A DNA stretch of 64,000 nt from Methylomonas sp. UP202 (GTDB lineage: Bacteria > Pseudomonadota > Gammaproteobacteria > Methylococcales > Methylomonadaceae), in contig NZ_CP123897.1 of assembly GCF_029910655.1 (NCBI RefSeq), positions 5,383,547 through 5,447,546 of the forward strand, read 5' to 3'. The notes under the pieces are model-generated. The model did not search any database and was not told the DNA's origin. It saw nothing but the letters and a program-made list of their open reading frames with translations. This document shows positions 8,378-17,728 of the stretch, one piece after another. The position numbers were made by a program, and so were the translations under genes. Position 1 is the stretch's first letter. Each line of letters begins with the position of its first letter.

Positions 8378-10126
8378 CTACTCGCTGGCCATCCGGCTTA
8401 GGCCGAACCGGTCGATTTTCTTGTACAGCGTGGTGCGGGTGATACCTAGCGCCTTGGCCGCCTGCGAAATGTTGCCGGCGCAAGCCCGCAACGTGGTTTT
8501 GATGCCGTAAAGTTCCCAATCCTCTAGCGTCATCGCCCGTCCCGGCTGCGACGCCCTGGGCGAGGCCTCCAACTCCGGTTCGGACTCCCGCGCGGTTTTC
8601 GCCAGTTCCGCGACAAAGTCCACCGGCAGATCCTCGCGCGTGATGAAATTGCCGCCGGCGGTATACAGCGTGGCGCGTATTACGTTGATCAATTGCCGAA
8701 TATTGCCGGGCCACGGATGCTGCTCGATCAAGGCAATGACGCTGGGACATATACCGATCGCTTGTGCGTTGGGCATTTTCGCGAGTTCGCGCTGCAGAAT
8801 GTGATGGATGATGGCCTGTTTGTCCTGCCGCTCACGTAATGGCGGCAGGTGGATTTGCGCGCCGTTGAGACGGTAATACAAGTCGCGCCGAAAGCGACCG
8901 GCCTCGACCGCATCCAGCAAAGGCACATTGGTGGCCGCGACGATCTGCACATCGACCCGAATCGGCTTGGCGCCGCCGACCGGCGTGAATTCGGAGGTTT
9001 CCAATACCCGGAGCAACGTGGATTGCAAATCCAGGCTCATATCGCCGATTTCGTCCAAAAACAAAATGCCGCCGTCGGCCAACAAAAATTTGCCCGGTTT
9101 ACCGCCGCTGCGGGCGCCGGTGAAGCTGCCGGCTTCATAGCCAAATAACTCGCTTTCGATCAAATCGTGCGGTATCGAGGCGCAATTGATCGCGATCAAG
9201 GGCTGCTCCCGGCGTGGCCCGGCATGCTTGAGGAGATTGACGAAGTGATCCTTACCGACGCCGGATTCGCCGGTGATCAGGATGGGAATCTTGTATTGCT
9301 GCAACTTGACCGCCTTATCAACCAAGGCCGCCAATTGCTCCGACATGGCCGGTTCCTCGGTTTGCGGCGGCCTTTTCGCTAATTTGAACGGGATTTTTTC
9401 CAAGACCCTGGCCTGCGCCGCCGGACTTCGCGTTAACGGTAGATTGGTATTCAACACCACGCATAGCAGATGCAGAAAGGCGAACAAGGAATTCATACTC
9501 TCCTGGCGATCGGCAATCAGGCCGATCACCGCCAGCAATTCGCCGCTGTCGTCCAGCAACGGGTAACCGACCGTGCTGAAAGGATGTAACAAACTCAAGA
9601 AATGCTCCATGCCTTGAAAGGCGACCGGCCGTTTCAGCAAGGCCGCGCTACCGATACCATTGTTGCCCAGCACCGCTTCGCTCCAACGGCTGTTTTGTTC
9701 GTACAGGTTGCGCATGAACGGGCTGGGGAAGGGATTTTCACCTAGAGCTTGTAACAACGCGCCGTCTGCGGCGGTCAGCACCAGCATCACGCCGGCTTCT
9801 TTCAAAAACACGTGAAATTGGTGACCCAAGTCCGCCAGCGACTCGGCGATCTGGCGGGACTGCGCATCGCCGCCGACAACGCCCTGGCCCGAACGCTGCC
9901 AATTGGCGAAATTCCCTAGCGGCAATTGATAGTCCTCCAAGCAACGCCGCCAAGCTTCGGCCACTTCCGGCCGAACCCAGTCGCTCTGATCGGGGACGGA
10001 GCGGGTTTGATTCATCCATCGCCAGGCTTGAACCGGGCGGTCGACTTCGAATTCCAGCGTACGCTTGTACAGAAAGGTTTCCTGAACAATTTTGGCGGTT
10101 TCGGGTAACCGTAACGCAATATCCAT
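8378..10126 (-). CDS. mmoR: MmoR, sigma-54-dependent activator of the sMMO operon
   Basis: 582 residues with the AcoR-like layout: an N-terminal segment with RPEVAEAWRRCLEDY and a GAF-like sensor (NNGIGSAAL, about residues 155-165), a central AAA+ domain (Walker A GESGVGKDHF at about residue 285, Walker B ILFLDEIGDM, arginine-finger region FRRDLYYRL) and a C-terminal Fis-type helix-turn-helix (NISQAAKALGITRTTLYKKI). The sigma-54 contact loop reads GSFTGA instead of GAFTGA. Position directly downstream of mmoG, on the same strand as mmoX, together with a sigma-54 promoter before mmoX, identifies it as MmoR. A strong terminator after mmoG means it must have its own promoter. In methanotrophs MmoR is required for sMMO expression under low copper. 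Confidence 0.93.
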   Translation of the reverse strand: MDIALRLPETAKIVQETFLYKRTLEFEVDRPVQAWRWMNQTRSVPDQSDWVRPEVAEAWRRCLEDYQLPLGNFANWQRSGQGVVGGDAQSRQIAESLADLGHQFHVFLKEAGVMLVLTAADGALLQALGENPFPSPFMRNLYEQNSRWSEAVLGNNGIGSAALLKRPVAFQGMEHFLSLLHPFSTVGYPLLDDSGELLAVIGLIADRQESMNSLFAFLHLLCVVLNTNLPLTRSPAAQARVLEKIPFKLAKRPPQTEEPAMSEQLAALVDKAVKLQQYKIPILITGESGVGKDHFVNLLKHAGPRREQPLIAINCASIPHDLIESELFGYEAGSFTGARSGGKPGKFLLADGGILFLDEIGDMSLDLQSTLLRVLETSEFTPVGGAKPIRVDVQIVAATNVPLLDAVEAGRFRRDLYYRLNGAQIHLPPLRERQDKQAIIHHILQRELAKMPNAQAIGICPSVIALIEQHPWPGNIRQLINVIRATLYTAGGNFITREDLPVDFVAELAKTARESEPELEASPRASQPGRAMTLEDWELYGIKTTLRACAGNISQAAKALGITRTTLYKKIDRFGLSRMASE

Positions 10127-10231: not shown

Positions 10232-10277
10232 AACAAAATAAAAAAAAGAGGCAATGCGACATAACGTCACATTGCCT
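10232..10277 (-). terminator. Rho-independent terminator after mmoG
   Basis: Read on the minus strand: a 12-bp stem beginning AGGCAATG, a 5-base loop and the pairing arm ending CATTGCCT, with one T:G pair, followed directly by C and a run of eight T, then ATTTTG. It lies 75-120 bases after the mmoG stop and ends the mmoXYBZDC-orf-mmoG transcript before mmoR. Two smaller hairpins (10290-10335) precede it. Confidence 0.9.
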
Positions 10278-10350: not shown

Positions 10351-12033
10351 TCACGCGCGCGGGTCCTCGCGAGTCGCCGCGGCCCATTCCGGCGAATAGC
10401 CGGCCATAATGGTGGGATCGGGCACATCCATCACCACTGATTCGCTGGCCATTAACGTGCCAACGATGCTCACTGCATTACGTAATCCCAAACGGACTAC
10501 CTTCACCGGATCGATGATGCCGATGTCCAAGAAGGGACCCAAGCGTTGCCGCTGCGTATCGTAGGCGTAACTCTCGCCGGCGTGTCGGCGTAAGTCCGCC
10601 GCGACGATTTCCCCATTCAGACCGGCGTTGCTGAGTATTTGTCGCAACGGCGCGAATAAGGCCTGACTCAAAATCGCCACGCCGCGTTGTTGTTCGGCGT
10701 TCTCGGCGATGACCTCGTCCAAGACCGCCGCCACGGCGACAAGCCCGGCACCACCGCCGGGCATGACGCCTTCCTCCAGCGCCGCTTGCACCGACTTGTA
10801 AGCGTTTTCAATGCGGACCATGCGTTCCTTGATTTCGATGTCGGTGACACCTCCGACGCTGAACACCCCGGTTTTACCGGACAGCATCGCGATGCGTTCT
10901 TCCAACTCGTCCGCTTCGTGCTGATTGCCGGTCGGGGAGCCGTCGCCCGGTTTGCGAGCGCGCACGTCCGCGAGCGCTTGACGCAAGCCGGACACAACCC
11001 GCGCGACGGCTTCGGAATCACCGGCACCGGCCAATATGGTAGTTGTTTCCGCGCTGACGATTGCGCGCTCCGCCTGGCCCAGTTGCGCCAACGTCAGATC
11101 TTCCAACCGAGTACCGTGGCTTTGTAAGACCGGCGTGGCGCCTGTCAACAAGGCTAAGTCGTTCAATCTTTCCAGCCGGCGATCGCCAAAACCGGGCGGC
11201 TTGACCGCGACAGTTTTGAACACGCCCCGAATGTGGTTCAGCAGCATGCCGGTCAACGCGTTGTCGCGGACATCGTCGGCGATCACTAGTAACGAACGAT
11301 GCTGGTCGGCGACTTGTTCCAAGATGGGCACCAAATCCATCAAGTCGACGATTTCCCGGTCGCAGAGCAGGATGTAAGGACGCTCAAGTTCCGCCGTGGC
11401 CCGATTGCGGTCGGTCACGAAATAGGGCGACAAATAGCCCTGGTCGTAGCGAATACCCTCGACAATATCCAGTTCGTCGTCCCGGCCGTTACCCAGTTGA
11501 AAAGTTAAGGGGCCATCTTGACCCAATTCGGCGAAAGCTCGGTTGAGCAATGTGCCGACGCCGGGCTCATCCTTGCTGGCGACTGCCGCTATTCGGGCGA
11601 TCCATTCCGGCGTGACGTCTGTCAATGCCCGGCGCCGCAATTCAATTTCAACCAGCGTCAGCGCCAGATCCAGGCCTTTTTGCAGTTGCAGTGGATGGAA
11701 GCCGGCCGCGACGCTTTTCAAACATTCCGCGGCGATCGCTCGAGCCAATACGATCGCCGTGGTGGTGCCGTCGCCGACTTGCCGCGACACGGATCCCGCG
11801 ACATCGCGCAGCATTCGCCCGCCGAGATCGGCAACCCGGTCTTCGAGAATGATCGAGTTGGCGACGGTCACCCCGTCGCGAGTAAAGATGGGCGGCATGC
11901 CATCGGTACGGTGCTGAATCAGTACCGCCGGCCCGGAACTGCCTAGCGTTGCCGCCGCGGCCCTAGCCACGGTGTCCATGCCTTGCATGATCCGCAAGCG
12001 GGCCTCGGGGTTGTAAATAATTTGTTTACTCAT
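10351..12033 (-). CDS. mmoG: MmoG, GroEL-like chaperonin of the sMMO cluster
   Basis: 560 residues from the ATG at 12033, which is preceded by GAGA; a longer frame to 12060 has no family support. It aligns through its length with GroEL: DGVTVA (Asp53, matching E. coli Asp52), VGDGTTTA (Asp88, matching Asp87), YLSPYF in the apical domain, VKPPGFGDRR, and EEGVMPGGG. In other methanotrophs MmoG is needed for sMMO expression, helping fold MmoR and/or the hydroxylase. Odd: the residue aligned with the ATPase-essential Asp398 of GroEL is Asn410 (segment RIENAYKS against RVEDALHA), codon AAC at 10806-10804. The GGM tail is missing and there is no groES next to it, so this is not the housekeeping chaperonin. 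Confidence 0.94.
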   Translation of the reverse strand: MSKQIIYNPEARLRIMQGMDTVARAAAATLGSSGPAVLIQHRTDGMPPIFTRDGVTVANSIILEDRVADLGGRMLRDVAGSVSRQVGDGTTTAIVLARAIAAECLKSVAAGFHPLQLQKGLDLALTLVEIELRRRALTDVTPEWIARIAAVASKDEPGVGTLLNRAFAELGQDGPLTFQLGNGRDDELDIVEGIRYDQGYLSPYFVTDRNRATAELERPYILLCDREIVDLMDLVPILEQVADQHRSLLVIADDVRDNALTGMLLNHIRGVFKTVAVKPPGFGDRRLERLNDLALLTGATPVLQSHGTRLEDLTLAQLGQAERAIVSAETTTILAGAGDSEAVARVVSGLRQALADVRARKPGDGSPTGNQHEADELEERIAMLSGKTGVFSVGGVTDIEIKERMVRIENAYKSVQAALEEGVMPGGGAGLVAVAAVLDEVIAENAEQQRGVAILSQALFAPLRQILSNAGLNGEIVAADLRRHAGESYAYDTQRQRLGPFLDIGIIDPVKVVRLGLRNAVSIVGTLMASESVVMDVPDPTIMAGYSPEWAAATREDPRA

Positions 12034-12221
12034 AAGTCTCGTATGCTGGTGGCGGACCAACGATCCCCGCCAAAATCGGCTTGCTCCCGAAGGGAGAACC
12101 GGCGAGGGCGCTAACCCAAGTTCTTAAAACCCAAACCGCCCCCTAAAAGCCATTCGTCCGGAACAGCTTTTCAGAAAGGTATCCTTTTGCCTTTGGGGAA
12201 GGTTGGGAACTAGTGCGGCAA

Positions 12222-12509
12222 TCAAGTTCGGTTTTTCATCAACGCCTGACCGGCCCGCGCCCGCGACAATCTGGCCCGCTTCAGCCTCAGCCAAACCCAA
12301 GTCAGTTTTTTGTCGTTATGGTCCAGCGCCAGTCGAAAGGCCTCCTCGTCCTCGGGCGGCATGCGCCTTTCCCAGTACTCGAGCAACTCGGCAACGCGCT
12401 CGTCGCCGAGCTTGGCAACCAACCGGATTTCTTCGGCGGCAAGCGCCCGAATGCTGTCTTCCAATTCCATGACCATTTCGTTGATAAACGCTTGATCTTC
12501 GCTTTTCAT
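12222..12509 (-). CDS. Small ORF between mmoC and mmoG, unknown function
   Basis: 95 residues from the ATG at 12509, 5 bases after the mmoC stop, so it is very probably cotranscribed and coupled. A TTG three codons earlier overlaps the mmoC stop and is a less likely start. The N-terminal two thirds are acidic and helical (MVMELEDSIRALAAEEIRLV), the last 30 residues basic (LRLKRARLSRARAG), giving a split-charge protein. No signal peptide, cysteine cluster or known motif is visible. I recall a small hypothetical gene in this slot in other sMMO clusters but cannot verify it here. It could be an assembly or regulatory accessory of sMMO; this is inference from position only. Confidence 0.75.
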   Translation of the reverse strand: MKSEDQAFINEMVMELEDSIRALAAEEIRLVAKLGDERVAELLEYWERRMPPEDEEAFRLALDHNDKKLTWVWLRLKRARLSRARAGQALMKNRT

Positions 12510-12514
12510 CGGAT

Positions 12515-13546
12515 TCAAGCGGCGCTAGGCAAAAATTTTTCCAAGTAGATTTTGTCGCGCGGGATGCCGACTTCGGCGCAGACCGCGTAAGTGGCATCGA
12601 CCATGCCCGGCGGACCGCACAAATACAGATCCGGTTTGACACCGGTACCCTGCAAGTCACGGCGTAAAATATCCACGACGCTGCCTTTCTCGCCATGCCA
12701 GCCGTCGCTGGCCTTCCAAACGCAAATACGCACCGACAAGGTCGGCATGGCTTGTTCCAGTTGCTGGAGCTGATCTCCGTAGAACACTTCCTGCTCGGTG
12801 TTGACGCCGAAATAGATCACGCAGGGCTGAGGTTCTTCCCATTCGTGCATGCGGCGTACCATTGATAGGATCGGTGCCAGTCCGGTACCACCGGCCACGA
12901 AATAACGTGGCGTAAAACCGTTTTCCTTCAATCCGAACACGCCCAAGGGCCCAACTACGTGAATGGTCTGGCCGACATAGGCATCCTGTTGCAAATAGGA
13001 AGAAAACTTACCGTTGTCGACGATCCGAATCAAAAACTCCAACTCGCCGCGATTGTTGGCGGTATTGGCCGGCGAATACGACCGACTGATTTCCGTACCC
13101 GGAATGACCAAGTTGTAGTACTGTCCCGAATCCAGCCGAATTTGCTGATCGTCACCGAGCTTTTGCAAACGCAATTTCACAACGTTACTGGACACCTGCG
13201 CCAATTCAACAATTTCGGCGTCGAATTCCAAACCCTCCGGCGAAAACGAAATCCGGTCATAGGTATACGGCACTTCGATTTCCAGATTAGTTGTCGGGAA
13301 ACAACGGCACAACAATACGAAACCCTCTTCGGCCTCGTCGGGCGGCAGGGCCTGGACACTGACCTTACCGATTTCGTAATCGCCTTCGGTACAAAATCCC
13401 TTGCAGGTCGCGCAACCGCCCTCGCGACATGAGGCCATCAGATAGATATCCTGGCGCAATCCGGCGCTGATGATATCTTCGTCGTCTCCGCAATCGAAGG
13501 CGACCGATTCACCGTCCTCGGTGATGATTTTGACATTATGCATCAT
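12515..13546 (-). CDS. mmoC: MmoC, sMMO reductase (FAD / 2Fe-2S)
   Basis: 343 residues from the ATG at 13546 (a second ATG follows at once). It takes electrons from NADH through FAD and a plant-type ferredoxin centre to the MmoX diiron site. Domains: 2Fe-2S at residues 1-95 with ligands Cys40, Cys45, Cys48 and Cys80; FAD domain with RSYSPANT near residue 155; NAD domain with YFVAGGTGLAP near 215 and the C-terminal YLCGPPGM. It ends FLPSAA, like its homologues. The start follows GGGAGACG at about 9 bases and lies one base after the mmoD stop. Confidence 0.96.
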   Translation of the reverse strand: MMHNVKIITEDGESVAFDCGDDEDIISAGLRQDIYLMASCREGGCATCKGFCTEGDYEIGKVSVQALPPDEAEEGFVLLCRCFPTTNLEIEVPYTYDRISFSPEGLEFDAEIVELAQVSSNVVKLRLQKLGDDQQIRLDSGQYYNLVIPGTEISRSYSPANTANNRGELEFLIRIVDNGKFSSYLQQDAYVGQTIHVVGPLGVFGLKENGFTPRYFVAGGTGLAPILSMVRRMHEWEEPQPCVIYFGVNTEQEVFYGDQLQQLEQAMPTLSVRICVWKASDGWHGEKGSVVDILRRDLQGTGVKPDLYLCGPPGMVDATYAVCAEVGIPRDKIYLEKFLPSAA

Positions 13547-13547
13547 G

Positions 13548-13811
13548 TTAAGCGTCTCCCTGGCCGACGCGCGCCGCAGAGACATTGAAAAACGCCATCA
13601 CGTGCTCAACTGCCCGGCGAGAGGCATCCAGCGTCAACGAGCACCCTTCTTGCACCAGCTTGCGGTCGCGGTAGATGGTCCAGCGCCACATGAAGTCCAA
13701 GTCTTCGCCGAATGCGGTATAGGGGGCAACATCGTATAACTTGGTCACCGGCGCGGAGGCGTCCGGAAACGGCGGTGGCGTCGCCGATTTGATATTGGCT
13801 AGTAAATCCAT
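13548..13811 (-). CDS. mmoD: MmoD (OrfY), sMMO assembly / copper-switch protein
   Basis: 87 residues if the ATG at 13811 is used; the frame extends to an ATG at 13904, but the extra 31 residues have no family support and that ATG lies inside an inverted repeat. The core matches the MmoD family: DLDFMWRWTIYRDRKLVQEGCSL in pieces around residues 36-58, then a helical end (RAVEHVMAFFN). MmoD inhibits the hydroxylase in vitro and is implicated in the copper switch between particulate and soluble MMO. It sits after a 170-bp gap from mmoZ that contains two hairpins, unlike the tight spacing elsewhere in the operon. No strong Shine-Dalgarno is seen before 13811. Confidence 0.88.
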   Translation of the reverse strand: MDLLANIKSATPPPFPDASAPVTKLYDVAPYTAFGEDLDFMWRWTIYRDRKLVQEGCSLTLDASRRAVEHVMAFFNVSAARVGQGDA

Positions 13812-13893
13812 CGTACTGTCTATCGAGTTAGATTGAGAATAAGCCGAGACGCGATCCGGCGCCCCAACCGAAAAAACCGGGGGAAAGAAGAGC

Positions 13894-13965
13894 CCGCCAT
13901 CCATGGCGGAACCCTAACATGCCGGAGAACGGGCCTCCCGCATACGAATAAAGGCCCGTTCGCCG
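13894..13965 (-). promoter_or_regulatory. Tandem inverted repeats in the mmoZ-mmoD gap
   Basis: Two stem-loops are readable. The first on the transcript is a perfect 10-bp stem (GAACGGGCCT with AGGCCCGTTC, arms at 13952-13961 and 13927-13936), with three more pairs possible at its base. The second is a 7-bp stem CCGCCAT/ATGGCGG (13894-13900 and 13903-13909) with a two-base loop. A T-rich stretch follows about 20 bases later (GGTTTTTTC). They may act as a partial terminator or an mRNA-end stabiliser, separating expression of the hydroxylase genes from mmoD-mmoC. Confidence 0.6.
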
Positions 13966-13981
13966 ACAATTCGATGCCCGA

Positions 13982-14485
13982 CTATTGCAATGTCACGACT
14001 CTGACGCCACGCACTTTGCGTAGATCTTCGAGAGACATTTCGTAATAGTCGGTGTTACGCAACTCCATCAGCTTGGTGCCGAGAATGCGGTCGGTATCCA
14101 TGAATACGTTGACCGGCATCATCGGCGGCTTGAAGGCTTGGCGGAAACCAATATGGATTTTTTCCGCCGCGAATTTATCGGTGCAGGCCGCCATTTTGGC
14201 AAGCACCGCATCCGCTTCCTTCTGGGCATCGGCGCCGTTGGCGCATTGGTTTTGGATTTGCTGGTCGTTAAGCTCCTTGTGTTTCAACAAGGCTACTTTT
14301 TCCTCGAGCTTGCACTCGATCCAACCCCAATCGAGTTCAAGATCATAGCTTGCACGAAGCGGCGTGGTGTACTTGAGACGAAACTCGTTAAGCATTTCCA
14401 CGCCTTTGGCCAGCGTATTGAGCGAACCGATTTTTTTGATCCATTCATCGCGAACCGGGTTGTCATGAATGTTGTAATTTGCCAT
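13982..14485 (-). CDS. mmoZ: MmoZ, sMMO hydroxylase gamma subunit
   Basis: 167 residues, normal length. The gamma subunit is a small helical protein that caps the (alpha-beta-gamma)2 hydroxylase and holds no cofactor. Seen: NIHDNPVRDEWIKKI at the N-terminus, the ELDWGWIECKLEEKV segment around residue 50, and FRQAFKPPMMPV near residue 115, all typical. The start has a good ribosome site (AGGAG, 9 bases before the ATG). It follows mmoB after 12 bases and is followed by the hairpin-containing gap before mmoD. Confidence 0.97.
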   Translation of the reverse strand: MANYNIHDNPVRDEWIKKIGSLNTLAKGVEMLNEFRLKYTTPLRASYDLELDWGWIECKLEEKVALLKHKELNDQQIQNQCANGADAQKEADAVLAKMAACTDKFAAEKIHIGFRQAFKPPMMPVNVFMDTDRILGTKLMELRNTDYYEMSLEDLRKVRGVRVVTLQ

Positions 14486-14497
14486 GGGTAAAAACTC

Positions 14498-14920
14498 CTA
14501 TGATTTCAGGTCTTCCAATTGACGATCCAGGCCCATCAACTCCGAAGTGATGGTGAATTTCTCGCCCAGGGTAAAGGCACGGCCGATCGTGGACGAAACG
14601 TCCACCAGGAAGTCATAGACGCTGAAGTGACGACCCAACAACTCCGAGACTTCCTCGCAATCGACTTCGATCTTGCCGGTGGCTTTCAACCACCAGTAGC
14701 CGGCGCGGTCTTCGACCACTAAAGTCGGATTGTCGGCCTTGCGATCGCCCAGCAAGATTTCGTCGACGACGATGTTAATCTCGTCGGATTTTTTCAGCAC
14801 CAGAACCACTTCGTTGCTTTCATGCACCACTTGGTTTTCTTCGGCGAAATACTCGTCGGCAAAAGCTTTGCCGGTTTTGGCCATAATGCCGGCGCCGTAC
14901 GCGTTAGAACTGACTGACAT
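14498..14920 (-). CDS. mmoB: MmoB, sMMO regulatory (coupling) protein
   Basis: 140 residues. The cofactorless coupling protein binds the hydroxylase near the MmoX active-site canyon and controls oxygen and methane access. The sequence begins SVSSNAYGAGIMAK and contains ENQVVHESNEVVLVLKKSDEI, VEDRAGYWWLKATGKIEVD (each given in part) and ISELLG-like ELLGRHFSVYDFLVDVSSTIGRA near residue 100, as in known MmoB proteins. The N-terminal tail, needed for full activity and cleaved in some preparations of M. capsulatus MmoB at Gly12-Met13, reads GIM here as well. Spacing to mmoY is 10 bases. Confidence 0.97.
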   Translation of the reverse strand: MSVSSNAYGAGIMAKTGKAFADEYFAEENQVVHESNEVVLVLKKSDEINIVVDEILLGDRKADNPTLVVEDRAGYWWLKATGKIEVDCEEVSELLGRHFSVYDFLVDVSSTIGRAFTLGEKFTITSELMGLDRQLEDLKS

Positions 14921-14930
14921 GTTGCTCTCC

Positions 14931-16109
14931 TTATTTCAAGCCTTGCAGAATGGTTTTGATAATGGCCGCTTTGTCGAATTTGTAGCTGACTTTGTCGGCA
15001 TAATCGAGTTTCCAGTCGTCGAAGACCCGCTCTAACGCAGCCTCAACGGCATCCTTGCTGGTCACACCGGGAATGGTCGGGATTTTTGTAAAAATGCCCA
15101 TGAAATCCTGCAATGCTTGCACTGTTCTTGGCAACCATTTGTCGGTCCAAGCCCGCATCATCCGGCGGTTGTAGTCGCCGAACTCAGCGTCGTCACCTAG
15201 ACATTCGAAGAACATGTCGGAGGTGATGCCCTTGGTTTGCGAGAAATACAACTGCATTTGGTTGATAAAAAACGGCGTCAAGGTATCACCGTAGTAGGAG
15301 GACAGGCGTTGGAAAAACTCCCGACGCACGAACTGGCCGAACAAGGGGTCGTAAACCATGTGGCAAGACCACAGGATTTCGTTCCAGTCGTACGTGGCTT
15401 GCCAGATGTCCTGAACCGTTTCGCGCGCACCTTTGTAGATGGCCCCTTGCGTCCATTCGCGTTTCGGTTCGTCGGTGGATTCAGGAAATCCAGGCACCAA
15501 TTTCGCCAAAAAGGTTCTTTCCAATTGGATCATTTGCGCGTTATCGACTTTATCGAAGCCGATCATCGCGATACTCATCCGCAAGGTATCGCCCAGGCAG
15601 TCGCGGGACGCCGAGGAATGCGCGTTGAACAAACCGTACTCGTTGAAGCAAAACGCGCCGAGATAGTCGTTCAATACTTCGTCGCGCCAAATGGGGTCTA
15701 TCGAGCGCACTTGACCTTCGGATGAATACGCCAGCAGGAAACGATCGGTGTAACGCCATTCCTCCGCTTTGTCTTTCACGTACGGTGCGTGCCAACGTTT
15801 AGCGGGATCGCGGTGTTTGTGCCAGTCGGTGGAATGCAGTTCGGTAGTCTCGTTACCCCAGGACGGACGGCCGCCGTGGAATTTTTGAGTCCAATCGCCC
15901 CAGTCCAACCCCCCGGGAATCCAGTCCGGGGTGGGTTGCGCATAGCAGGTCAATACTTCGTATTCGGTCAGCCGGCGACCGCGCGGCTTAACGAAGTAGT
16001 TCATCTTACGTTGTGTATCCAGCGGCTGATCGGGAATGGCTTCCAGAATTTCTTTGACCATTTCCGGATCGGTCAATCCGCGTTTTCCTTGTTGTACTTG
16101 TACAGACAT
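14931..16109 (-). CDS. mmoY: MmoY, sMMO hydroxylase beta subunit
   Basis: 392 residues, normal length for the beta subunit, a ferritin-like helical protein that forms the dimer interface of the hydroxylase and lacks metal ligands. Recognisable segments are RKMNYFVKPRGRRLTEYE near residue 40, PDWIPGGLDWGDWTQKFHGG around 75-95 and the helical core with EWTQGAIYKGARE. It follows mmoX after 35 bases with a Shine-Dalgarno (AGGAG) before the ATG. No promoter is obvious between mmoX and mmoY, so it should be carried by the mmoX transcript. Confidence 0.97.
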   Translation of the reverse strand: MSVQVQQGKRGLTDPEMVKEILEAIPDQPLDTQRKMNYFVKPRGRRLTEYEVLTCYAQPTPDWIPGGLDWGDWTQKFHGGRPSWGNETTELHSTDWHKHRDPAKRWHAPYVKDKAEEWRYTDRFLLAYSSEGQVRSIDPIWRDEVLNDYLGAFCFNEYGLFNAHSSASRDCLGDTLRMSIAMIGFDKVDNAQMIQLERTFLAKLVPGFPESTDEPKREWTQGAIYKGARETVQDIWQATYDWNEILWSCHMVYDPLFGQFVRREFFQRLSSYYGDTLTPFFINQMQLYFSQTKGITSDMFFECLGDDAEFGDYNRRMMRAWTDKWLPRTVQALQDFMGIFTKIPTIPGVTSKDAVEAALERVFDDWKLDYADKVSYKFDKAAIIKTILQGLK

Positions 16110-16144: not shown

Positions 16145-17728
16145 TTACAGAGCGTCCAACGGGTCTTTAAACACGCAGTTCAGCTTTTTGATGTCGTCCA
16201 AGGTCCACAACTTGCCGTTTTTGTTGGTGTGCGGTTGGGCGATCAAGGTTTTACCGTCGCTACGCACGCCGTGCTGTTCGGCGATTACTTCGGACAATTC
16301 GCGTCCCGCGTATTGTTCGAACATGTTTTGGCACTCGTAACGTTCCGGCTCGCTCAACCACATCCGCTCGCCCCATTCGTCGCTAAACGAATGTTTTTTG
16401 CCGTTGTACTCGTGGACTCTCAGCGTGCTGGCGCCTTTGCACAATGAAGGGCAGAACGGTACTTGCGAAACGCGGTCGATGTAGATCGGATGGTTGTTTT
16501 CGATGAACCACATCAACGGAATAAAGCCGCTGTTCGGATCTTCGCAACCGCGCGCGCGCCACTCGTCGTAGATTTTGCCGTATTGGTCGTACCAGCCTGG
16601 ATAGTTGGCTTCGAACCAGTCCGCTTCTTCGGCGGTCGGCAGCGTCAAGCGGAAGAAACCGGTGGGCCACAAGGCATAGGCCAACAGGAACAGGTCGTGG
16701 TGAGCCCAATACGCGTCTTTTTTCGCATCGCGCAAACTGCGTGGCGATTCGACACCATATTTGCCTAGACGGCCGATCCAGATGCCACCCCAGTCTTCGT
16801 AAACCCAGCGGTTCCAGGTTTTGACCCAAGGCTCGACTTTGAATTTCGAGCCGTACTCAAACAACATACCCAATACCGGCGTGAAGTATTTTTGTTGGGT
16901 CCAGAACGCGTTGTTCAAATCGGTGTTCAGATATTTGGAAGCCGCCGCGTCGTTGGCGATGGACACCACGGTTTGATAGCCGTTGGCCATGTGGCGCAAC
17001 TCGTCGGTTTCGATCGACAGGAACACGGTCGGGGTAATTTCGTCGCCGTTGGCCGCCGCCCATTCGGTGATCGCGACGATCAACGGATTGGTGAAGCAAG
17101 CCTCGCCGACCAATTGCAGGTTAACCGAGCACTCGACGGCGTCACCGGAGATAAAGCCGTCGGAGAACACCCGCTTCATACCTTTCCACAGCGGGCCGAT
17201 GGTGCGGGTGCGGCGCGCATCGTTATGGCCGGCGGGATCGTGGAAATGCTTGCTGAAGTAGTAGTTTACGTAACCGCATTGGTTGGTGTGGCGAATTTCA
17301 TCCAACACCTGAGCCAAGTAGCCGTTTTTTTGCTCGGGCGCGGAAGCCGAATCCCACAGCATGCCGGTCGCGGCGATGGCGTTGTATTCGCCGACTTCCA
17401 AGAAGTTGGAAGCGACTTTCATGGTTTCGCCCCATTTCGGATGTACGCGATTGCCCGCATCCAAGCGAGTCAGCACGTCTTGCAAACTGCCAAACTGGCG
17501 CTCGTCCTTGACCGACTCCATTCTGGCGTATTCCTTGGCGATCAGCTTGAACTGTTCCTTGGTTTCATTCGCCATTTTGTACTTGGTAGGATACTTGGTG
17601 CGATTTTTGTCAAAGTCCCAAGTGAAACTTTGCAACCACCGATGGACTTCCTGGGCGTTGACGCTGGTTGGCGCGCGATTGACGGCCAAGGCATCGGTTG
17701 CGGCTTTTGTTGCTGCACTTATAGCCAT
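16145..17728 (-). CDS. mmoX: MmoX, sMMO hydroxylase alpha subunit (catalytic)
   Basis: 527 residues. It oxidises methane to methanol at a carboxylate-bridged diiron centre in the cytoplasm. All six iron ligands are present at the canonical numbers: Glu114 (EVGEYNA), Glu144 and His147 (DEIRH), Glu209 (VGEACF), Glu243 and His246 (DELRH). Thr213, the active-site gate residue, and Cys151 are also kept, so the enzyme should be active. First gene of the sMMO operon, read from a sigma-54 promoter about 120 bp upstream. The nearest relatives by memory are Methylomonas MmoX proteins. Confidence 0.98.
   Translation of the reverse strand: MAISAATKAATDALAVNRAPTSVNAQEVHRWLQSFTWDFDKNRTKYPTKYKMANETKEQFKLIAKEYARMESVKDERQFGSLQDVLTRLDAGNRVHPKWGETMKVASNFLEVGEYNAIAATGMLWDSASAPEQKNGYLAQVLDEIRHTNQCGYVNYYFSKHFHDPAGHNDARRTRTIGPLWKGMKRVFSDGFISGDAVECSVNLQLVGEACFTNPLIVAITEWAAANGDEITPTVFLSIETDELRHMANGYQTVVSIANDAAASKYLNTDLNNAFWTQQKYFTPVLGMLFEYGSKFKVEPWVKTWNRWVYEDWGGIWIGRLGKYGVESPRSLRDAKKDAYWAHHDLFLLAYALWPTGFFRLTLPTAEEADWFEANYPGWYDQYGKIYDEWRARGCEDPNSGFIPLMWFIENNHPIYIDRVSQVPFCPSLCKGASTLRVHEYNGKKHSFSDEWGERMWLSEPERYECQNMFEQYAGRELSEVIAEQHGVRSDGKTLIAQPHTNKNGKLWTLDDIKKLNCVFKDPLDAL

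Follow-up and report, generated by a model that had tools for sequence, protein, structure and literature searches.

The soluble methane monooxygenase (sMMO) cluster in a 64,000-nucleotide stretch of the Methylomonas sp. UP202 genome (contig NZ_CP123897.1, positions 5,383,547 to 5,447,546; hereafter the window) encodes a chaperonin, MmoG, that carries asparagine at the position of the catalytic aspartate Asp398 of GroEL. This loss is general, as the acid is absent from all 86 distinct MmoG proteins that we compared, and the family is tied to the uncharacterised protein MmoE. We consider it somewhat probable that MmoG belongs to a dedicated line of group I chaperonins that lost Asp398 once, and that it works as a slow-hydrolysis, long-dwell cage together with MmoE as its partner. 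In the MmoG and methanotroph passages of open-licence PubMed Central, from which all literature cited below by accession is drawn in part, the substitution is unmentioned, and nothing there pairs MmoG with Asp398 or GroEL with D398N.

An asparagine at the catalytic position of MmoG

The features of the window gene that bear on the substitution are as follows.

10351..12033, minus strand: mmoG, Cpn60-family chaperonin of 560 amino acids with ATG at 12033 (open reading frame, family matches, AlphaFold model)
10804..10806, minus strand: codon AAC of Asn410, at GroEL Asp398 (window letters, alignments)
11875..11877, minus strand: Asp53, equivalent to GroEL Asp52; Asp kept in 85 of 86 MmoGs (alignment)
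11770..11772, minus strand: Asp88, equivalent to GroEL Asp87; Asp kept in 86 of 86 MmoGs (alignment)
10924..10965, minus strand: residues 357-370, holding an 11-residue insert relative to GroEL, the exact place of which differs between two alignments
10354..10389, minus strand: conserved C-terminal tail EWAAATREDPRA, in place of the GGM tail of GroEL (alignments)

We chose the ATG at 12033-12031 as the start of mmoG; the longest listed open reading frame begins with TTG at 12060. The plus-strand letters at 10804-10806 are GTT, which read AAC on the coding strand and specify Asn410. In a pairwise MAFFT alignment of MmoG with E. coli GroEL (L178), RIENAYKS lies over RVEDALHA without gaps, so that Asn410 falls on Asp398, and the same alignment matches Asp53 with Asp52, Asp88 with Asp87 and the GGG loops with each other. 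The same correspondence is given by phmmer against solved chaperonin structures and by a profile of eight MmoGs, and MmoG 410 and GroEL 398 occupy one column of a 149-row alignment. The replacement, the two retained acids and the intact loop had all been claimed in a sequence-only reading of this DNA, and they hold. We rejected a shifted alignment as the cause of the asparagine, as the pairwise, phmmer and profile alignments all pair Asn410 with Asp398; the 11-residue insert lies about 40 residues before the site and leaves its register unaffected.

The AlphaFold model of MmoG (predicted local distance difference test (pLDDT) score of 87.7) has a predicted group I chaperonin fold. Among the 50 PDB matches listed for it, all are group I proteins (GroEL, Hsp60, Cpn60 and so on), the first with a template modelling (TM) score of 0.80 over 538 columns. 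The asparagine lies in a modelled helix spanning residues 397-420 (numbered without the initial Met), and in GroEL it is helix M that carries Asp398 (PMC3326522). MmoG scores 197.7 bits against PF00118 (Cpn60/TCP-1; cut-off 34.3) over residues 21-536 and passes the looser GroEL subfamily models, and its 501.5 bits fall short of the 582.1 required by the GroEL equivalog TIGR02348. Of the traits expected of a GroEL equivalog, it has Asp52 and Asp87 and lacks both Asp398 and a groES in its operon, the latter being customary for groEL without strictly defining it. The window protein is 99.6% identical to the MmoG of Methylomonas koyamae R-45383 (L035).

Asp398 is absent throughout the MmoG family

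To place the substitution in its family context, we reduced 183 full-length open reading frames to 147 distinct chaperonins, in which near-identical species copies remain, dropped 16 short pieces and grouped the proteins by their best relative. Position 398 is Asn in all 86 MmoGs, which by record titles span gamma-, alpha- and betaproteobacteria and share as little as 37% pairwise identity; the codon is AAT in 56 of them and AAC in 30. It is Asp in every one of the other chaperonins of GroEL type (45), propane-monooxygenase type (10) and actinobacterial type (4), that is, in 59 of 59. The sequence-only reading had proposed exactly this scoring across methanotrophs as a check of its claim. The butane-monooxygenase-like chaperonins, a label that we use for what we take to be group-3-like clusters (three loci, with MmoX 64-67% identical), have Asn and Lys in the two members of the sample and Asn in a third found later. 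The Lys398 protein is encoded in a butane-monooxygenase-like cluster of Methylocella tundrae (L179 and L128); its Mg loop reads GDGSNTA and its tail resembles that of MmoG. A scan of viral sequences returned two relatives.

Across the 86 MmoGs, 44 of 560 positions are invariant, and among these D398N alone replaces a residue that at least 95% of 44 GroELs share. The GroELs used for comparison represent a narrow range of sources, chiefly plasmids, the Methylocella family and relatives of the window. The other invariant column that differs is a Ser in the insert, for which GroEL has no counterpart. The reference set of 44 is the GroEL type minus one odd plasmid protein (L148, Cupriavidus sp. USMAHM13), a divergent chaperonin adjoining formate dehydrogenase genes that has Ser at Asp52 and keeps Asp398. 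The 68 genome-contig loci were found by two peptide patterns, one being the C-terminal tail itself and the other lying just before position 398, so there is some circularity in the conservation of the tail among these loci. Neither pattern includes position 398, however, and the loci that came from protein or profile searches likewise have Asn.

Two further accounts of the asparagine were rejected. It is not a trait of all monooxygenase chaperonins, since 14 of 14 Prm/Mim-type proteins keep Asp398, nor is it steadily rescued by the neighbouring Glu397, since three of the 86 MmoGs have Ser, Gly or Asp there whereas Asn398 is constant.

We built a tree by a quick method from 74 of the 147 rows, with column 398 excluded. 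The states at that position need two changes on it, read as Asp to Asn once and Asn to Lys once, and MmoG and the butane-monooxygenase-like type are set apart together by a branch that has a Shimodaira–Hasegawa-like approximate likelihood ratio test (SH-aLRT) support of 100. The order of the fork between the butane-monooxygenase-like type and two MmoG lines is not resolved, and the two butane-monooxygenase-like rows have long branches, with possible long-branch attraction between them. On these sequences, a single loss of Asp398 in the shared ancestry of the sMMO and butane-monooxygenase-like chaperonins is the simplest account.

The same data bear on a rival explanation, by which MmoG is an ordinary cycling chaperonin whose Asp52 alone, or Asn398 through an ordered water, hydrolyses ATP adequately, the asparagine being a neutral change that was fixed once and locked in by its neighbours. 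That one origin suffices on the tree fits this, as it reduces the ubiquitous Asn to a single event followed by retention; Glu391 and Arg392 nearby are likewise invariant, which means that position 398 does not stand out by its low variation, and Asp52, Asp87 and most of the hydrophobic positions for GroES and peptide binding are retained. However, Asp398 is constant in the 59 other chaperonins, even the distant chaperonin of phage EL has Asp412 at the equivalent site (PMC7185714), and a single transition would restore the aspartate, yet none of the 86 MmoGs has it while other positions of helix M vary. We regard this explanation as a serious but unlikely one, and selection for the asparagine may instead have kept it in place.

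MmoE accompanies the chaperonins that lack Asp398

Immediately upstream of mmoG lies a short gene on the same strand.

12222..12509, minus strand: mmoE (orf1), 95 amino acids, predicted all-helical, candidate partner of MmoG (open reading frame, profile, model)

The name MmoE was coined in PMC9324122, where the protein was known in three operons, predicted to have long helices and considered a possible lid. For the window MmoE, neither Pfam nor NCBIfam gives a match at E values up to 1, and no significant relative in sequence or fold was found among solved structures. Its model is all-helical (pLDDT 93.3), which agrees with the published helices and speaks against a GroES-like lid; with neither a Cpn10 beta-barrel in the model nor a Pfam match, we rejected a GroES-like lid or co-chaperonin on the basis of this predicted fold.

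In a profile search, 84 of the 86 MmoG genes have MmoE no more than 1 kb away, and in the two remaining cases (L067 and L090) the chaperonin frame starts at a contig end. The profile, which was trained without butane-monooxygenase-like sequences, also detects MmoE beside both of the butane-monooxygenase-like chaperonins found first (E values of 3.9e-16 and 4.9e-20). Within 1 kb of the chaperonins with Asp398 there is none, be they of GroEL type (0 of 45, most with a flank of about 1.5 kb), propane type (0 of 10) or actinobacterial type (0 of 4), which makes 0 of 59. For the 14 Prm/Mim-type proteins, MmoE was likewise missing from the 19-20 kb plasmid stretches (11) and the 20 kb stretches (L181-L183) around them.

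All 86 MmoE matches share the strand of their chaperonin and 85 were scored as upstream; the flagged exception (L022) is upstream as well, its MmoE frame ending at 1475 and its MmoG match starting at 1501. The pair is intact although the surrounding gene order varies, with mmoC-mmoE-mmoG-mmoR at 45 loci, mmoR-mmoE-mmoG at 11, mmoR-mmoE-mmoG-mmoX at one and other orders elsewhere. At the level of genomes, of 61 relatives the 21 with MmoE (E value of at most 1e-4) are the very ones that have MmoG (5.7e-154 or better). Of 149 genomes from the family to which Methylocella tundrae (G066) belongs, 11 have MmoE: the ten that also have MmoG, and G190, which was reached by the MmoE genome scan and has a butane-monooxygenase-like cluster where MmoE is accompanied by a chaperonin carrying Asn398. 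Another genome (L219 in G012) has a second, partial MmoE-like frame some 15 kb away from its mmo cluster, with no chaperonin recognised in the 19.9 kb around the frame.

At 66 of 86 loci the MmoE-MmoG pair has mmoR as its closest recognised neighbour to one side, and MmoG might mainly hold the regulator MmoR in a state competent for DNA binding, a task for which a slow site suits stable holding. In Methylosinus trichosporium, MmoR requires MmoG to bind the mmo promoter (Scanlan et al., via PMC5874634), and mutants lose mmo transcription and functional sMMO (PMC7994243). The proximity of mmoR leaves the tie to MmoE unexplained, however; the chaperonins of other soluble diiron monooxygenase (SDIMO) clusters have been proposed to fold the hydroxylase (PMC11057499), and sMMO in E. 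coli needed GroES/EL with a construct for which no mmoR is listed (PMC9324122). Holding MmoR as the main task of MmoG therefore seems to us quite improbable.

A slow folding cage as a candidate mechanism

The GroEL mutant D398A binds ATP normally, retains 3% of the wild-type ATPase activity and still encapsulates and folds its substrates efficiently (PMC3326522), in line with what the sequence-only reading had stated of it, namely binding with hydrolysis nearly stopped. By analogy, slowed hydrolysis is the natural prediction for MmoG, and this half of the earlier mechanistic proposal stands. The other half, a holdase rather than a cycling chaperonin, fares less well, because D398A GroEL still folds and the apical binding residues are kept or conservatively replaced in most MmoGs; the evidence favours a cage that folds slowly over a protein that only holds.

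In the mechanism we propose, Asp398 is lost and the acids at positions 52, 87 and 495 are retained; ATP would still bind and drive closure of the cage, hydrolysis would be strongly slowed and the dwell thereby long, MmoX (plus the assembly of MmoXYZ) or MmoR would be folded or held inside, and MmoE would adapt the client or regulate its release. A long dwell would suit a large metal-binding hydroxylase, or the stable holding of MmoR.

Asp495, Gly86, Gly88 and Gly414 are each kept in 86 of 86 MmoGs, as is the equivalent of Asp87, which we take to be the Mg site. Because Asp52, Asp87 and Asp495 are retained, we rejected a decaying active site, even though some contacts drift. A single Methylococcaceae MmoG (L060) has Asn also at Asp52 and hence both catalytic-site acids altered.

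At the positions of the apical domain that we assume to bind GroES and peptide in GroEL, MmoGs keep Y199 in 58 cases (Phe in 21, Trp in 7), Y203 in 79, F204 in 84, L237 in 83 and L259 in all 86; L234 is kept in 3 and is Val in 48 and Ile in 35, V263 is Leu in 82 and V264 is Leu in 81. Judged by sequence, the hydrophobic binding residues are thus retained or conservatively swapped in most MmoGs.

Several points weigh against this mechanism. We found no measurement of ATPase or ATP binding for MmoG in open-licence PubMed Central passages, and the published mutant is Asp to Ala, whereas Asn may permit more hydrolysis. Asp52, which is presumably also near the attacking water, is retained. Other positions that contact the nucleotide in GroEL have drifted (Pro33 is kept in 18 of the 86, Ala480 in 16 and Leu31 in 40, and 74 have Arg for Lys51), and the site therefore differs from that of GroEL by more than the missing acid. 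The position and chemistry of the site are taken from alignment and the fold of a monomer model rather than from model coordinates, and Asn itself is not required throughout the butane-monooxygenase-like clade, as one of its three members has Lys. As for the partner, we infer binding of MmoE to MmoG solely from gene linkage, and a 2025 paper describes M. miyakonense HT12 and a Methylobacter MmoX cluster as having lost the hypothetical gene that separates mmoC from mmoG (PMC12810054). HT12 was elsewhere reported to possess mmoE (PMC9324122), and we find its reading frame in that strain (L076), in agreement with the latter report and in apparent conflict with the former.

A bolder version joins the two proteins into one machine, the cage of which would close on ATP binding, with release set by MmoE or by completed hydroxylase assembly and not by hydrolysis; Asp398 would then have been lost and MmoE gained in one evolutionary step. 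We hold this only tentatively and think it rather unlikely in its full form.

The intersubunit and interdomain positions bear on whether MmoG could instead be a subunit without hydrolysis that joins the GroEL of its host in mixed rings, borrowing its ATPase and GroES. Each of 21 plus 8 MmoG genomes has at least one further chaperonin match, and the genome of the window has one Cpn10 match, adjoining groEL, both in favour of such mixed rings. However, the salt-bridge positions R197, D83 and K327 (intersubunit or interdomain) differ from GroEL, which leans to self-assembly and makes mixed rings, in our view, very unlikely. R197 is Gln in 81 of 86 MmoGs, D83 is Arg or Lys in 84 and K327 is Glu or Asp in 52, with the charge of the D83/K327 pair, which we assume to be in contact in GroEL, swapped in 50. 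Contacts described for GroEL are R197-E386 and E255-K207 (PMC3326522). Many MmoGs also differ from GroEL at 452, 461, 463 and 464, and the tail is typically EWAAATREDPR, with variants such as AAETREDPR. We take those four positions to be the ones altered in the GroEL single-ring mutant SR1, and a single-ring form of MmoG was among the states that we considered.

Comparison with known systems

MmoG resembles E. coli GroEL in fold, in 38-39% identity to GroEL-type proteins, in Asp52, Asp87 and Asp495 and in the GGG loop, and differs from it in Asn398, the 11-residue insert before helix M, a TREDPR-type tail instead of GGM, the altered R197 and D83/K327, the absence of an adjacent groES and the presence of MmoE alongside. 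With the D398A laboratory mutant it shares the lack of the same acid next to retained Asp52 and Asp87, but its substitution is Asn rather than Ala, natural and family-wide, in a protein about 60% different elsewhere. If hydrolysis in MmoG is crippled, it would be the natural counterpart of the mutant used to slow GroEL, and folding cages could then evolve away from a hydrolysis timer.

Like MmoG, chaperonins of the PrmG/MimG type are encoded inside an SDIMO cluster, whereas they keep Asp398 in 14 of 14 cases and have neither the Ser of the insert nor the tail motif. We understand PrmG and MimG as names for the chaperonins of propane- and actinobacterial-monooxygenase clusters. The four actinobacterial-type chaperonins (L133, L134, L137 and L144) have Asn in place of GroEL Lys51, beside a retained Asp52.

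The pairing of a cage with small enzyme-specific assembly factors recalls GroEL and RbcX in the maturation of Rubisco, a comparison made in PMC9324122, with MmoE predicted to be all-helical; the likeness of MmoE to RbcX is one of role, without a significant match in fold or sequence. Active sMMO was obtained in E. coli by adding GroES/EL despite the presence of mmoG and mmoE on the construct, and the authors suggest that too little functional MmoG formed there (PMC9324122). Our finding bears on this difficulty of producing active sMMO in E. coli, for which MmoE is a candidate missing factor.

Gene neighbourhood of mmoG

The minus strand of the window reads mmoXYBZDC-mmoE-mmoG-mmoR, and MmoG is thus encoded within the mmo cluster, the other features of which are listed here.

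16145..17728, minus strand: mmoX, hydroxylase alpha subunit and presumed client (PF02332, no NCBIfam match; named by position and family)
14931..16109, minus strand: mmoY (NF045802)
14498..14920, minus strand: mmoB (NF045804)
13982..14485, minus strand: mmoZ (NF045805)
13548..13904, minus strand: mmoD (TIGR04550)
12515..13585, minus strand: mmoC, reductase of sMMO (NF045803)
10249..10277, minus strand: terminator-like hairpin in the mmoG/mmoR gap, 13 pairs and a T run (consensus match only; the region total is not above shuffles)
8378..10126, minus strand: mmoR, sigma-54 activator and possible client (PF00158, HTH_8; named by position and family)

There is no groES beside mmoG, as the sequence-only reading had noted; the sole Cpn10 match of the genome lies at G000:C1:587333. 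The same genome has a second groEL-like copy (L003/L004, G000:C1:2813078-2814037) with in-frame TAG stops and an unmatched C-terminal part, and the gene preceding it resembles, by eye, a bacterioferritin. Another genome, G385, which is in the same family as a betaproteobacterial record, has four copies of mmoX (L203-L205), including a tandem pair within a single mmo cluster.
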